A stretch of 64,000 bases of DNA from positions 9,672,118 to 9,736,117 of the forward strand of contig OX422185.1 in NCBI GenBank assembly GCA_949130485.1, written 5' to 3'. Both the position numbers and the translations under genes were made by a program. Below are positions 29,976-60,936 of the stretch, piece by piece. This DNA comes from Agelas oroides. Its lineage: Eukaryota; Porifera; Demospongiae; Agelasida; Agelasidae. The notes below the pieces were generated by a model. That model was not told the origin of the DNA. It worked only from the letters and a program-made list of their open reading frames with translations, and did not search any database. Numbering within the stretch: the first letter of the stretch is position 1; each line of letters starts with the position of its first letter.

Positions 29976-32045
29976 ATGGATGTAGACTTGGAGACTATTA
30001 TTGATCCTAACGACATCCAATCGACTTGGTCAAATTGGAAGAAGATATTCCTAGACATCATGGATGAATGCATACCTAAATCTATTTTGCCGAACAGAAA
30101 AAATCTTCCGTGGCTTACCAAGGACATAATCCAACTAATACGTAAAAGGAACAACCTCTTTAGAAAAGCAAAAGTCTCAAATGACCCTAAAGATCTCCAG
30201 CAATTCAAAGCTACCCGAAATAAAGTTGTCTCTAAGCTGAGATCAAGTAAACAAAGATTTTTCTCTAGCCTCGACCCTAAGCATCCCAAAGATTTCTGGA
30301 AATCGATTAAAGCCCTGAGCACATCACCTGATGACTGTTCAATCCCTTCACTGATTGACAGTGCAACAAGCAACGAGGTAAAAGATAATGGGGACAAGGC
30401 AGAACTACTGAACCATACATTTGTCAGTCACTTCAATACCGCGCAAATACCCATCAACCACACTGATATCCCACCAGTAAATCCAGAAGATTCCTGTGAC
30501 AGCATTCTGTGTTCTGAAGACGAGGTCTATAACCTCCTACGTTCACTAGATACCACTAAGTCTAATGGAGACGATGATATCTCAGCGATTATGCTCAAAA
30601 ACACAGCACTTAGTATCACTGAAGCAGTTACCAAGATGTTTAACATATCTATCTCGCTTGGCGAACTTCGAGATGAATGGAAAGTATCACGTATTACTCC
30701 CATCCCAAAACATGGAGACCGCACAAACCCATCCAACTACCGCCCAATTTCCCTACTTTCAATCCTAAGCAAACTTTTGGAAAAGCATATGACACAATTA
30801 CTTACTGAACACGTGGTAGTACACAGTCCAATATCTCCTCATCAATGGGGGTTCTGTAAAGGAAAATCAACTGCTGGTGCTCTAGCACTGGCAGTTGATC
30901 AATGGCACAGGCATCTTGAGGAAAGTAATGATATATGTACCGTGTTCTTTGACTACAGAAAAGCCTTCGACACTGTTCCACACAGAAACTTACTGTCTAA
31001 ATTGGAATCTCTTGGTATTAACTCGTATGTACTCAGATGGTTGACCCATTATCTCTGTAAGCATTCCCAATATGTATGTACTAATGGTTCAAACTCCAAC
31101 AAACTACTTGTAACATCAGGAGTACCTCAGGGCTCTGTTCTGGGACCTATATTATTTATTATCTATATTAACGATATTACTCATTCCACCCTATTCGATG
31201 GCAGCATGAGACTTTTTGCTGACGACATTATGATATACAGGCCAGTTCGTACACTGGAAGACTTTACCATGTTACAGTCTGACATTGACAGCCTTACATC
31301 TTGGACTGAACAAAATTTTCTACAATTCAATGCAGACAAATGTAAGTATATGGTAATCTCCAGGAAACATCAAATAAACCTTTCCCTGGAGTCCCAGCCT
31401 CCACTCCAAATAAACGGTGTCACCATGGAAAGAGTTGACAACTACAGATACCTTGGAGTCTGGATAACATCCAACCTTTCTTGGAACAAACATATCACAG
31501 AAGTGTGTCGCAAAGCTAGGCAAAAGGTGGGCATCCTCTATCGCAAATGCTACAAAAATGCCAACAATGCCACAATGCTGAAACTCTATCTTTCCTGTAT
31601 TAGACCTGAACTAGAGTACGCTGCCACTGTCTGGTCTCCTCATCAAAAGGGTCAAATTGACACTCTTGAATCTGTTCAGAAACTTGCATTGCGTGTATGT
31701 TTTAGGAATTGGGACACCAATTACCATACCCTGCTCTCCACGAATAACATTCCAAGTCTGTCCAAAAGAAGGTTCTTTTTACGTCTAAGTTTTCTATTTA
31801 ATATTGTTAAAGGAGTATACAGTCTGCCACACAACGCACCTATCGAAATAAGAGAGTACCACCACTACTCCCGATCTCACAGTCTCACCTTGAAAGTTCC
31901 ATATGCTAATACCAATGCATTTTACTACTCATTCTTTTGTGATTCTCTTCGCCACTGGAATGCACTTCCACATGATATTATTGACTCCCCTGATGCCGAA
32001 CACTTCAAGAGTAAATTATCTGTTCACTTCAGAAACATGCATTAA
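29976..32045 (+). CDS. LINE ORF2 part 2: reverse transcriptase
   Basis: A 689-residue frame in the same phase as the endonuclease. Reverse transcriptase blocks are all visible: YRPISLLS near residue 254, QWGFCKGKSTAGAL, VFFDYRKAFDTVPH near 324 (first catalytic Asp), SGVPQGSVLGPILF near 381 and RLFADDIMIY near 413 (catalytic Asp pair). NYRYLGVWI and a CR1-type C-terminal domain follow. All catalytic residues are intact. Together with the endonuclease this would be an ORF2 protein of about 940 residues. The stop at 32045 is followed by 200 bp of 3' UTR. Confidence 0.92.
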   Translation: MDVDLETIIDPNDIQSTWSNWKKIFLDIMDECIPKSILPNRKNLPWLTKDIIQLIRKRNNLFRKAKVSNDPKDLQQFKATRNKVVSKLRSSKQRFFSSLDPKHPKDFWKSIKALSTSPDDCSIPSLIDSATSNEVKDNGDKAELLNHTFVSHFNTAQIPINHTDIPPVNPEDSCDSILCSEDEVYNLLRSLDTTKSNGDDDISAIMLKNTALSITEAVTKMFNISISLGELRDEWKVSRITPIPKHGDRTNPSNYRPISLLSILSKLLEKHMTQLLTEHVVVHSPISPHQWGFCKGKSTAGALALAVDQWHRHLEESNDICTVFFDYRKAFDTVPHRNLLSKLESLGINSYVLRWLTHYLCKHSQYVCTNGSNSNKLLVTSGVPQGSVLGPILFIIYINDITHSTLFDGSMRLFADDIMIYRPVRTLEDFTMLQSDIDSLTSWTEQNFLQFNADKCKYMVISRKHQINLSLESQPPLQINGVTMERVDNYRYLGVWITSNLSWNKHITEVCRKARQKVGILYRKCYKNANNATMLKLYLSCIRPELEYAATVWSPHQKGQIDTLESVQKLALRVCFRNWDTNYHTLLSTNNIPSLSKRRFFLRLSFLFNIVKGVYSLPHNAPIEIREYHHYSRSHSLTLKVPYANTNAFYYSFFCDSLRHWNALPHDIIDSPDAEHFKSKLSVHFRNMH

Positions 32046-53322: not shown

Positions 53323-55400
53323 GAGGCAGCCTCCATCTTTGCCTCTCTATTAAATGCCCACCTTGAGCGGCACGAGATCCTTCCTCGAAGCTCCCCTTGC
53401 GGGACAAAACCTTCCGCTCCAATACGCAGAACTAGGAGAATTGAGAAAGTGGTGGAGAGAATGAAGCAACTACTGTCCGTTTGCAGGAAAAACCGAAAGA
53501 ATGCACCACGTGCTTTTCATGATGCATGTAGAGCATATAGCAAAGCTTTAAAAGCTAAGAGGAACTTAGAGAACTCCACAAACATCCGTAAACACGAAAG
53601 AACATTCAGAAACAATCCCTGGCTCTATGCAAAGAAGTGCTGTTCTGGGAAAAACACCCATGCAGAACCTGACTTCAGTGCTGAAACAGCTTATGCATAT
53701 TTCCTAGATTCAACTGCTAGCAGTCATCAGACTTACCAGACACTTCCAGAGTGGGTGAAACAAGTTATGCCCTTCACCAAACGTGATGAGCCAACCGAGT
53801 TTGACCTATCTGCCATTACTCCTAGTACCATCAGAAAGGTTCTGAAAAGTCGCCCTTCTAACTCTTCTCCAGGGGAAGACGAGATTACTTACCACCATCT
53901 GAAAAAGCTACCCTCTGTCCACCACTTCCTGGCGACCTTGTTTTCAAAGATCTTACTGGAAAATCATGCTGCTCCAGAATCCTGGTGCCAGGCCAAGATT
54001 ACCCTTATCCCCAAAAATCAGGATCTGTCCAATCCCGAGAACTTTCGCCCTATAGCACTGACTTCAGCAATAGGCAAACTCTTCAACAAAATCCTGGCTC
54101 TCCGACTGGAACGCTTCCTTCACGACAATGATATCATAGATACCAGTCTCCAAAAAGGTTTCTTGACCAACATTAATGGCACAATGGAACATATCTTTGC
54201 CACCTCAGCCATAATCCAAAATGCTGTTCAGAATGGCCTCCCTCTCTCAGTCACCTTTCTTGACCTCAAGAATGCCTTTGGGTCAGTACCACACCAGCTC
54301 ATATATGATATGCTAGCTCACATCCAGCTTCCACTTGAAGTGAGATCATACATATCCAGTGCCTACTCTCAATTAACTGCACGAGTAGTTACAAAGAACT
54401 GGTCAACACCTAGCTTCCCAATTAGCAAAGGAGTCTTTCAGGGGGACACACTGTCACCACTGATATTCTTGATTACCTTTAATCCCATCATCCAACTTGC
54501 ACAGTCGCTTTCAACCTGTGGCTTCCGACTCAAACTGTCAGACCCCACCGCACAAGAACTTCCAAAGGTGAACTCACACCTTTATGTCCAATGGGACGAG
54601 GATGACTCAGATGAACCCCAAGGCTGGTATCTAGCCAAAGTCATCTCGGTATCATCAGATGGCACAGCAACAGTACTTTATCGTAAAGGGAAAATGCTGG
54701 AAACACTCAACCTTTTCGAGACTAATTGGTTTTCAGCCCCAGGGAATGGCAAATGGTATCTTTCTAACCCCCCCTCTACAGTTACCACCACAAGCACCAA
54801 ACACTCCAAGACACACAAAGTAAAAGGATTCGCTGACGACCTCTCTGTTTTCTCCTCCTCAATGAATGACCATGCAACTGCCTTACAAACCATTGACAAA
54901 CACTGTTCAGATCTTGATCTGACACTGAAGCCTTCTAAATGTGTGTCCTTTGTCTATAATGGCAAGAAAGTGCTCAGCAATATAACGTTCTCACTCAAGG
55001 ATGGTTCCACTAGGAACATCTCCACAGGTCCCACTAAGTTCCTAGGACACACCCTTTGCCAAACCCTGCCAGCAACAACTAAGGAGTCAGGCAAGAGATT
55101 CATGATCTCCTTCCTGGAGAAGCTGGATAGCTTGGACACATCTCCCATTCGAGGGGAATACAAACTATGGATTCTTCGCAGATTCCTTATTCCCTCATTT
55201 CACTTCGTCTTATCAGTAGATGTGATACCTGATTCAAGCATCAAGAAAGTTCAGTCTCAATGCACCAGAAAGATCAAGAGCTGGCTCGGCCTCACAAGAG
55301 GAGTTACAAATGCTGTTATACACCACCCCAATGTTATTGACATCCCAGCCATCTCAGAGTATCGTACGAAAGCAAAATTAACGTTTCCTCTATCCTTACC
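53323..55400 (+). pseudogene. RLE-LINE reverse transcriptase with Tudor-like insertion
   Basis: Open from the junction; the first ATG-type start in this frame is about 53449, but that is internal to the original protein. Blocks counted from there are FRPIALTSAIGKLFNKI near 200, QKGFLTNINGTMEHI near 240, VTFLDLKNAFGSVPH near 275 (first Asp), SKGVFQGDTLSPLIF near 330 and KGFADDLSVFS near 461 (Asp pair). Between the last two lies about 80 residues more than usual. Residues about 376-432 (VQWDEDDSDEPQGWYLAKVI, then GTATVLYRKGK, then NWFSAPGNGKWY) resemble a Tudor/chromo-like barrel. Similar insertions occur in predicted cnidarian and sponge reverse transcriptases as I recall them. The frame breaks near 55400. 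Confidence 0.85.
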
Positions 55401-55680
55401 TCGAAGGACCCAATGATCACTGAAATCTCTGAGTTGCTATTGGATCAGGGCTTCACTAGAAGTCAACGCATACCCTCTGAAGTGAATCAGGTCTTGGCTC
55501 TGGCAAAGAACTCCATATCCACTATCACCACCAAAACTCTGTCACGTAAATGCACAAGTGTCCATCGGGAAAGTCGTGTCAAACACTGGAATGACAAACT
55601 TAGTGAATTGACAGTCCAGAGCAAATTCACCGACATCACAAAACTAGATCCCAGAACAATGTTTGGAAGCGTATCCAGAA
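55401..55680 (+). pseudogene. RLE-LINE, post-RT linker segment
   Basis: Continues the protein one frame over (SKDPMITEISELLLDQGF through RVKHWNDKLSELTVQSKF), a helical linker of the kind found after the thumb in R2-like elements. It needs one added base at each end, near 55400 and 55660, to join its neighbours. Confidence 0.7.
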
Positions 55681-56383
55681 AGGAATGCCTGCTGGACAGC
55701 TGTCATTTCTGCTGAGGGCTGGGTCAGACACGCTCCCCACTCCTCTAAACTTGCGACGATGGAGATTAAGGCCAGATGCCAAGTGCCCTCTCTGCAACAA
55801 CCCATGGCCTACTGTCCAGCACATATTAAATGGTTGCCCTGTATCCCTCGCACAAGGAAGGTATACCTGGCGACATGACAGTGCCTTGAAGATCTTGGCT
55901 AATGGTCTAAGGGAGTATCTCCAACCAGGAGAAAGGCTATACGCAGATCTACCGGGATTGAGAGTTACTGATAACCCCCCATCTACCATCCCAGCTGAAA
56001 TCCTGGACACCTCAGCCCGCCCGGACATTGTCATAGTCAGTGCTAGCGAAATCATCCTTATTGAACTAACTGTTCCGTATAACTCACCTGGCTGCCTCCA
56101 AAATGCAAGATCGAGAAAAGAGAGCAAGGAAATATACCAGCATGCTTTGAGCGATCTAGAAACAAAAGGAATGATATCTGAACTAGTGACTGTTGTAATT
56201 GGTGCATTAGGCCACTGGCTACCACACACTCGCTCCTCACTACGGCAGCAGGTCTCTTCACTCTCCAAGTCAGCTGCCACACACCTTCTTGATTCAGCAG
56301 CTAAAGCTGCAGTAACTGCTTCACACAGAATATTCTGTGCTCGCCTCAACCCACTATGGAACTCAACTCAACCATTCTCTTAA
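55660..56383 (+). pseudogene. RLE-LINE CCHC finger and restriction-like endonuclease
   Basis: Begins WKRIQKGMPAGQLSFLLRAG, then has a C-x2-C-x8-H-x4-C knuckle (CPLCNNPWPTVQHILNGC). It is followed near 56010-56075 by RPDIVIVSASEIILIELTVPY, read as the PD-(D/E)xK-like core of the endonuclease (PD, then E-x-T). The stop is TAA at 56381-56383. The domain nicks target DNA for target-primed reverse transcription. All expected key residues are visible. Confidence 0.82.
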
Positions 56384-56624
56384 TGTTCATACATAACATT
56401 ATTGCTTTTCTCCGGTCATTGTTTTTATCTCATGTTTTTGTCTAGTTCATATTGTGCACTTTTTGCCCTTGCCAAGCCCAAGTTTTATACTTGTTTATCT
56501 TGAGTTCTGGGGTCCGTCTTCAGTAGTTGTGTGTCGAGTGGGGGAGCACCAACACCGCTGGCACATCGATGTTCAAAATTTCACACATACATAAAGTGTG
56601 AAGTTAAAACATAAAGGGAGATGG

Positions 56625-56735
56625 GGATGGGGCATTTATGGCTTAGATGGATGGGGCATTTTATGGCTTAAATGGGTGGGGCATTTATGGCTTAAATGGG
56701 TGGGGCATTTATGGCTCAAATGGATGGGGCGGTTA
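56625..56735 (+). repeat. Short tandem repeat in left foldback arm
   Basis: About 4-5 units of ATGGCTTAAATGGGTGGGGC type, 24-27 bp each. The opposite arm (about 60755-60835) has fewer copies. Confidence 0.85.
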
Positions 56736-57259
56736 GTTACTGTTTTTGGGAGATATGCTCAAAAAAATACTGGTCTTCAGGGGAGTACCCTTTCCGGTCC
56801 TCGCATGACCACGGGTTTCGGTCCCTTTGAACTCCCGACCCGTGGCCTACTACAGAAAGGGCGGGACCACTCCCCGCCTAAGGTTTGCTTTGAGGAGCCC
56901 AGCTTTTGGTTGGCACATAGTGCTATGGGCATTCACAGTGCTATAAATATTCAAATTACTAAACAAATTGGGGGTGGGGCTTAGTGGGTGGAGTTATCAT
57001 ATTAACTTACAATAACTAGGGGGATGGGCGAACGGTTAACGTACGGTACGGGATTCTGGCTCGCTATCGTGTCGTCTTGGTGGAACGTCTGGGAGGCTTG
57101 TTCTTCGCTGGTAGGCGCTCCTGTACCGAAGATAATTCGGGTCTGTACTGCGGCGACCATCTCACGGTGAGTATTATTAGTTGTTTGTGTGTGATACTCG
57201 GTCGACGGGCTTTAAATAGGAGCGTGCTTCTCTTAGTAACGGCGTACCTATCCTAGTAA

Positions 57260-57708: not shown

Positions 57709-58500
57709 AGGCTCACTCACAGTGTGAAGCTCATTCACATTAAAAATTACGAGTGTGAGGCTCACTCACACTTGAGTTACTACTGTGAGGCTCACTCACA
57801 GTTACGCTACGTGTGTGAAGCTCATTCACACTTGAGTTACTACTGTGAGGCTCACTCACAGTTACGCTACGTGTGTGAAGCTCATTCACACTTGAGTTAC
57901 TACTGTGAGGCTCACTCACAGTTATGCTACGGGTGTGAAGCTCATTCACACTTGAGTTACTACTGTGAAGCTCACTCACCGTTATGTTACGAGTGTGAAG
58001 CTCATTCACATTTTAAATTATGAATGTGAAGCTCATTCACACTTCAGTTACATGTACTACTGTGAGGCTCATTCACCGTTACGAGTGTGAGGCTCACTCA
58101 CACTTGAGTTACTACTGTGAGGCTCACTCACAGTTATGCTACGGGTGTGAAGCTCATTCACACTTGAGTTACTACTGTGAAGCTCACTCACAGTTATGCT
58201 ACGGGTGTGAAGCTCATTCACACTTGAGTTACTACTGTGAGGCTCACTCACAGTTACGCTACGGGTGTGAAGCTCATTCACACTTGAGTTACTACTGTGA
58301 AGCTCACTCACCATTATGTTACGAGTGTGAAGCTCATTCACATTTTTAAATTATGAGTGTGAAGCTCATTCACACTTTAGTTACATGTACTACTGTGAGG
58401 CTCATTCACCGTTACGAGTGTGAAGCTCATTCACACTTGAGTTACTACTGTTACGCTATGGGTGTGAAGCTCATTCGCATTTCAAATTACGAGTGTGAGT
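57709..58500. repeat. Dyad array, left foldback arm
   Basis: About 26 short dyads alternate between GTGTGAAGCTCATTCACAC and CTGTGAGGCTCACTCACAG, spaced about 30 bp apart with TTGAGTTACTA or TTACGCTAC spacers (period about 60 bp). The outermost base pair differs between the two types but stays complementary. Open frames on both strands are by-products of the 60-bp period. Confidence 0.92.
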
Positions 58501-59564: not shown

Positions 59565-60115
59565 TCATAATTTTAAATGCGAATGAGCTTCACACCCATA
59601 ACGTAACTGTAGTAACTCAAGTGTGAATGAGCTTCAGACTCGTAACGTAACTGTGAGTGAACCTCACAGTAGTAACTCAAGTGTGAATGAGCTTCACACT
59701 CGTAACGGTGAATGAGCCTCACAGTAGTACATGTAACTGAAGTGTGAATGAGCTTCACACTCATAATTTAAAAATGTGAATGAGCTTCACACTCGTAACA
59801 TAACGGTGAATGAGCCTCACAGTGGTAACTCAAGTGTGAATGAGCTTCACACTCATAACGTAACTGTGAGTGAGCCTCACAGTAGTAACTCAAGTGTGAG
59901 TGAGCCTCACACTCGTAATTTTTAATGTGAATGAGCTTCACACTCGTAACATAACGGTGAATGACCCTCACAGTGGTAACTCAAGTGTGAATGAGCTTCA
60001 CACCCATAGCGTAACTGTGAGTGAGCCTCACAGTAGTAACTCAAGTGTGAGTGAGCCTCACACTCGTAATTTTTTATGTGAATGAGCTTCACACTGTGAG
60101 TGAGCCTCGCAGATA
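59565..60115. repeat. Dyad array, right foldback arm
   Basis: Same dyads as the left arm in inverted order, but about 240 bp shorter. This shows that copy number changed independently after the arms formed. Confidence 0.92.
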
Positions 60116-60936
60116 ACACAGAGCAGCCCCAACCCCTAGCTCAGCCTTATAGAACCGACTACAGCCCTAGGCGTACCGTTACTATAGTAAAGCACACGTC
60201 ATACCTAGCGTAACAATGCCGTTACTAGGATAGGTACGCCGTTACTAAGAGAAGCACGCTCCCATTTAAAGCCCGTCGACCGAGTATCACACACAAACAA
60301 CTAATAATACTCACCGTGAGATGGTCGCCGCAGTACAGACCCGAATTATCTTCGGTACAGGAGCGCCTACCAGCGAAGAACAAGCCTCCCAGACGTTCCG
60401 CCAAGACGACACGATAGCGAGCCAGAATCCCGTACCGTACGTTAACCGTTCGCCCATCCCCCTAGTTATTGTAAGTTAATATGATAACTCCACCCACTAA
60501 GCCCCACCCCCAATTTGTTTAGTAATTTGAATATTTATAGCACTGTGAATGCCCATAGCACTATGTGCCAACCAAAAGCTGGGCTCCTCAAAGCAAACCT
60601 TAGGCGGGGAGTGGTCCCGCCCTTTCTGTAGTAGGCCACGGGTCGGGAGTTCAAAGGGACCGAAACCCGTGGTCATGCGAGGACCGGAAAGGGTACTCCC
60701 CTGAAGACCAGTATTTTTTTGAGCATATCTCCCAAAAACAGTAACTAACCGCCCCATCCATTTGAGCCATAAATGCCCCACCCACCCATTTAAGCCATAA
60801 AATGCCCCATCCATCTAAGCCATAAATGCCCCATCCCCATCTCCCTTTATGTTTTAACTTCACACTTTATGTATGTGTGAAATTTTGAACATCGATGTGC
60901 CAGCGGTGTTGGTGCTCCCCCACTCGACATACAACG

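Follow-up and report, generated by a model that had tools for sequence, protein, structure and literature searches.

A predicted Tudor-class barrel inserted in the reverse transcriptase palm of an R2-group LINE of the sponge Agelas oroides

We identified in a 64,000-nucleotide stretch of the genome of the sponge Agelas oroides (contig OX422185.1, positions 9,672,118 to 9,736,117; hereafter the window) a long interspersed nuclear element (LINE) of the R2 group, family A, whose reverse transcriptase (RT) carries an additional domain between its FQGD and FADD motifs. The added segment is very probably a real folded barrel of the Tudor class. Our tentative reading of its role is that this Royal-family barrel, at the tip of a palm hairpin, docks the ribonucleoprotein (RNP) of the element at methylated histone tails. 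What prediction and comparison establish is the position of the insert, its recurrence, the confinement of its carriers to one side of a branch, an excess of silent changes, an R2-like polymerase and a barrel predicted to fold independently between two tethers of low confidence. To our knowledge, target-site choice by restriction-like-endonuclease LINEs without a fixed ribosomal DNA (rDNA) target is poorly understood. The barrel module may contribute to this choice in the element, and a reader-type domain beside the active site would be a direct, testable handle on it.

Position, recurrence and constraint of the insert

The assignment of the element to the R2-group LINEs follows from an RT with the R2/LINE fold and the QGD...FADD motifs, and the closest solved sequences to the window RT are R2 proteins. 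Pfam RVT_1 matched the open reading frame (ORF) of the window copy with an E-value of 4.6e-28 (best stretch, residues 187-353, plus a second stretch). The zf-RVT domain scored above cut-off in the window (E 1.2e-6) and in three other copies (L003, L006 and L013), the endonuclease motif (RPDI...ELTVP) being recognised by eye only. A first-pass annotation of the window had placed FQGD at residue 330 (nucleotide 54436) and FADD at residues 461 to 464 (ending at 54840), exactly where we find them, and had noted about 80 extra residues between the two. We measured this spacing, from the first residue of F/Y-QGD to the first residue of F/Y-ADD, in the ORFs of 50 loci from the 259-Mb assembly that holds the window, a search of which with the RT protein returned at least 70 matches. 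Both motifs were found in 30 segments, many of them near-copies and thus not 30 independent cases. The insert was present in 9 of these and absent from 21, the spacing being 131 residues in family A (n = 5), 140 in family B (n = 3) and 141 in family C (n = 1), versus 43 (n = 20) or 42 (n = 1) in the relatives without it. The excess is therefore real and slightly larger than annotated, with net values of 88 (A), 97 (B) and 98 residues (C). An additional copy outside this count (L010) had the insert and an altered QGD motif, and the lack of the insert in L049 was seen directly from the spacing. By alignment, the insert occupies the tip of a hairpin whose first strand (GFRLK) follows the QGD helix and whose second is the FADD strand (HKVKGFADD); the sister families have a short turn there. 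When aligned to R2, the two halves of the window protein matched separately, skipping query residues 351-458. The hairpin before FADD is shown to tolerate a whole domain.

Searches of the assembly with the insert itself, at E-values up to 1, returned 27 matches with the family A query and 29 with the family C query. Far from being missing from other family copies, the insert was found in at least six lineages among the loci examined: A (with the decayed copy L014); L015/L018, L022 and L053; B; C; D (L012, L016, L020, L052, L054 and L056); and E (L055). Its identity to the family A insert is 37% in B and 36% in C. Chance is excluded because the insert recurs at one point in lineages so divergent within it, and its presence in at least six of them rules out a copy-specific accident. 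Trees were built without the insert columns. The first used 27 hand-picked rows of the 55 usable ones, omitting near-copies, loci that overlap, copies that are truncated or carry deletions, and short pieces, and also L041 and L050, which are not known to be near-copies; in it a branch set 14 carrier rows apart from 13 others (Shimodaira-Hasegawa-like approximate likelihood ratio test, 87). A more careful tree of 22 of the 55 rows, from which L014, L055, L029, L038 and P0002 were additionally dropped, had a branch separating 12 carrier rows from 10 others (support, 93/95; 94% of 200 bootstrap trees). Because the carriers lie on one side of the branch, and both R2Tg and the CR1-like RT at 29976-32045 in the window are without the insert, its history would most simply be a single gain in the ancestor of the carrier clade, with retention since. 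Two origins are possible; the carrier branch was not starred. The sister families without the insert (L029-L043) were more numerous among the loci examined and often had open frames of about 1,100 amino acids, and their consensus has, by eye, paired N-terminal C2H2-like motifs (CPFC...GNHL...C and CPxCxKxFxRLDTHLKNSAxC). They provide a natural control in the same genome.

The window copy is broken, and our interpretation rests on open copies elsewhere in the genome. Between the window copy and the decayed L014, the insert has accumulated 14 silent and 13 replacement changes (P = 0.0014 against the expected replacement share); between L013 and L019, the numbers are 11 and 9 (P = 0.00098). Among near-identical family A copies, the ratio of replacement to silent rates (dN/dS) was 0.07-0.45 in the insert (4-5 changes each) versus 0.37-0.74 for the remaining RT sequence, and inclusion of L014 gave 0.26 for the insert (0.36 from L003). 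The L013-L019 pair gave 0.20 for the insert versus 0.14 for the rest of the RT. The inserts of family B copies differ by at most 1 change and are uninformative on selection. As the decayed copies also gathered neutral changes, constraint is probably underestimated.

The predicted barrel and its possible ligands

Both AlphaFold2 models gave a five-stranded SH3-like barrel, at residues 377-430, a close match to the segment of about 57 residues that had been annotated as Tudor- or chromo-like. A disordered loop, the outcome that would have spoken against a domain, was ruled out. Conserved residues of the barrel include W382, E384, G392, W393, Y394, Y411 and W427. In an hhalign alignment with SMN, W382, Y394 and Y411 fall on three of four positions that we take to be the aromatic cage of that protein. 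These residues are kept in 12/12, 12/13 and 9/9 rows covering each position, respectively, and E384 in 12/12. Acidic residues in such cages would favour lower methylation states. In NCBIfam the insert matched only MiiA, a 27-residue surface-protein motif (E 0.0058); the match is under the cut-off and we dismissed it as chance.

In the reading that we tentatively prefer, the ligand of the barrel would be a methylated lysine (or arginine), held by a W-Y-Y part-cage together with acidic residues of the beta1-beta2 loop and lying most likely on a histone tail. With the RNP docked at marked nucleosomes in this way, the endonuclease would nick and the polymerase would begin target-primed reverse transcription. 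The action of the barrel would resemble that of the chromovirus integrase chromodomain, exerted from inside the polymerase palm. The basic tail that follows the barrel would probably touch nucleic acid. The functional chromatin or RNP reader proposed in the first-pass annotation fares well as to the module, a predicted folded Tudor/Agenet-class barrel that is in frame in open copies, constrained and common to several families; the reading function is putative. Several observations limit the case for it. The fourth SMN cage position holds G, S, D or H instead of F, W or Y. Pfam Agenet (PF05641) matched 3 of 4 members with a best E-value of 0.0024, under its gathering cut-off (13.2-16.7 bits where printed versus 27). 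Furthermore, the single match of a reversed control profile had a lower E-value than the matches of the real profile, which slightly lowers the odds both of the preferred reading and of a real barrel. A variant in which docking of this histone-mark reader shifts the hairpin beside FADD, so that reverse transcription is gated and the enzyme turned on only at marked nucleosomes, we consider improbable.

The same fold could serve other ligands. The top Foldseek match was the extended Tudor domain of TDRD1 with a dimethylarginine peptide, and SND1 was also among the matches; together with the three SMN positions, this would suit a barrel whose ligand is dimethylarginine on an RNP protein of the host, such as a Piwi- or Sm-type tail, and which directs the RNP of the element towards germ granules or out of reach of silencing instead of to chromatin. 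However, the predicted insert is one small barrel, without the second folded part of extended Tudors, the small histone-reader Tudors of PHF20, PHF1 and RDM15 align over 52-56 residues at 1.7-2.0 A, and the P value of the SMN alignment is only 0.057. We regard dimethylarginine binding as unlikely. Somewhat less unlikely is an SH3-like structural or nucleic-acid module that reads no methyl mark and helps to keep the template RNA, the RNA-cDNA hybrid or the target DNA in place. The barrel adjoins the catalytic hairpin, MazF, PWWP and KOW barrels are also among the fold matches, and the tail after the barrel is basic in families A, B and C (5-10 K/R and 0-3 D/E). Yet the barrel itself is net acidic in all three (9-14 D/E versus 5 K/R), which argues against it gripping nucleic acid, and the aromatics of the cage positions are among its conserved residues.

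It is improbable that the domain is a passive passenger, having entered a tolerant loop and persisting there with no function. In favour of this reading, the tip of the hairpin is clearly permissive, and low-confidence linkers flank the predicted barrel on both sides. On the other hand, silent changes exceed expectation, the strand-end aromatics are nearly invariant across the divergent lineages, and at least six lineages have retained the insert. Moreover, the sole family A place examined that is without it (L007 and L021 are one genomic place) lost it through a larger deletion.

The window copy and comparison with known systems

The features of the window copy are collected in Table 1. Other family A copies (L002-L005, L007, L011 and L021) match it at 97.9-98.7%; no match starts before 53323, and the last piece of each stops at 56525. 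Beyond the point where the window copy stops, six family A copies continue to the terminus GGTTTCCCCCCC. The RT and endonuclease regions are in different frames in the window copy and continuous in L003; the window ORF diverges from its relatives near the 3' end, and its C-terminus is unlike that of L003.

Table 1. Coordinates of the family A copy and its parts in the window.
Feature	Position	Strand	Remarks
Family A restriction-like-endonuclease LINE copy	53323..56525	+	5' edge adjoins 72-bp satellite array; 3' terminus missing
ORF, 655 aa: RT fingers, palm, insert, thumb	53449-55416	+	Broken copy
FQGD motif, residues 330-333	54436..54447	+	
Insert as delimited for analyses, residues 363-455	54535..54813	+	Alignment of copies with and without insert; net excess 88 residues over sister group
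Predicted five-stranded Tudor-class barrel, residues 377-430	54577..54738	+	AlphaFold2, conservation, fold matches
Ser/Thr/Pro-rich linker after barrel, residues 431-455	54739..54813	+	Basic residues, no acidic; residues 443-453 with predicted local distance difference test (pLDDT) <50
Catalytic FADD motif, residues 461-464	54829..54840	+	
C-terminal zinc-binding domain and restriction-like endonuclease region (RPDIVI...ELTVPY)	55685..56383	+	Separate frame in window copy

The 5' starts of the window copy (53323), L002, L003 and L007, at different sites, lie within about 23 bp of one another, and L004, L005 and L011 start further in. A run of 7-8 C ends six family A copies. The four clustered starts and the common C run hint at a complete unit of short length or at a site of strong 5' truncation. 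No N-terminus (zinc fingers, Myb) is visible for family A, the retrieved copies reaching little upstream of 53323. Much of the window (883-64000, many arrays) is filled with a diverged 72-bp satellite in both orientations, with higher-order periods of 144 and 216 bp. Between satellite arrays lies the CR1/Jockey-like RT already mentioned (plus strand), an open frame of 689 amino acids named by eye. The LINE copy ends directly at the first of two 734-bp inverted repeats (56526-57259 and 60222-60935; 96.9% identical), which resemble the termini of an element of about 4.4 kb with internal 30-bp repeat arrays (57721-58445 and 59612-60095).

We found no Tudor domain in a LINE RT in the literature searched, which covered few subscription papers and preprints. 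The word "tudor" is absent from the main texts of PMC13188248, PMC12503042, PMC4640811 and PMC3636483, the first and third of which describe sponge R2-homologous and Utopia elements, and the available part of PMC5678591 mentions no such domain. Relatives outside the source genome were absent from viral_contigs and genome_contigs, which are non-eukaryote collections and say little. No host Tudor gene that could have donated the insert was among the subset of insert-search matches that was retrieved; single-sequence searches of this kind would miss a distant gene. RT sequence lies beside the insert in all six of L051-L056, and the matches within the other loci examined were also in RT copies.

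The polymerase around the barrel is R2-like (R2Tg and R2Bm; PDB 9dou and 8gh6), the split alignment setting about 108 residues of the window protein against about 17 of R2 (9nl3). R2 has one target, whereas the 3' flanks of six family A copies (L002, L003, L004, L005, L011 and L021) differ from one another by eye, so that these copies cannot share one site; no shared target of the R2 type (the 28S rDNA site) was evident from these flanks, which were compared with each other and not with rDNA. Restriction-like-endonuclease LINEs comprise the CRE, R2, R4, NeSL and HERO clades (PMC4640811), and sponge R2-homologous elements without a 28S target have been reported (PMC13188248). Utopia/NeSL-type LINEs and these sponge elements belong to the same group of restriction-like-endonuclease LINEs as family A, and the sister families without the insert resemble the published description of Utopia in having N-terminal zinc-finger-like motifs, an RT and a C-terminal part. 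The small histone readers (PHF20 Tudor2, PHF1, PHF19 and RDM15) share with the insert the barrel and its strand-end aromatics, at 13-27% identity in VIA-align (30% for PHF20 in Foldseek). They are, however, domains of host chromatin proteins, whereas here the barrel is a loop insert in a polymerase. The integrases of chromoviruses, which are long terminal repeat (LTR) elements, likewise carry a chromatin-reader-type domain on the integration enzyme of a mobile element. Their chromodomain is C-terminal on an LTR-element integrase, whereas the predicted Tudor-class barrel of family A sits inside the palm of a LINE RT.
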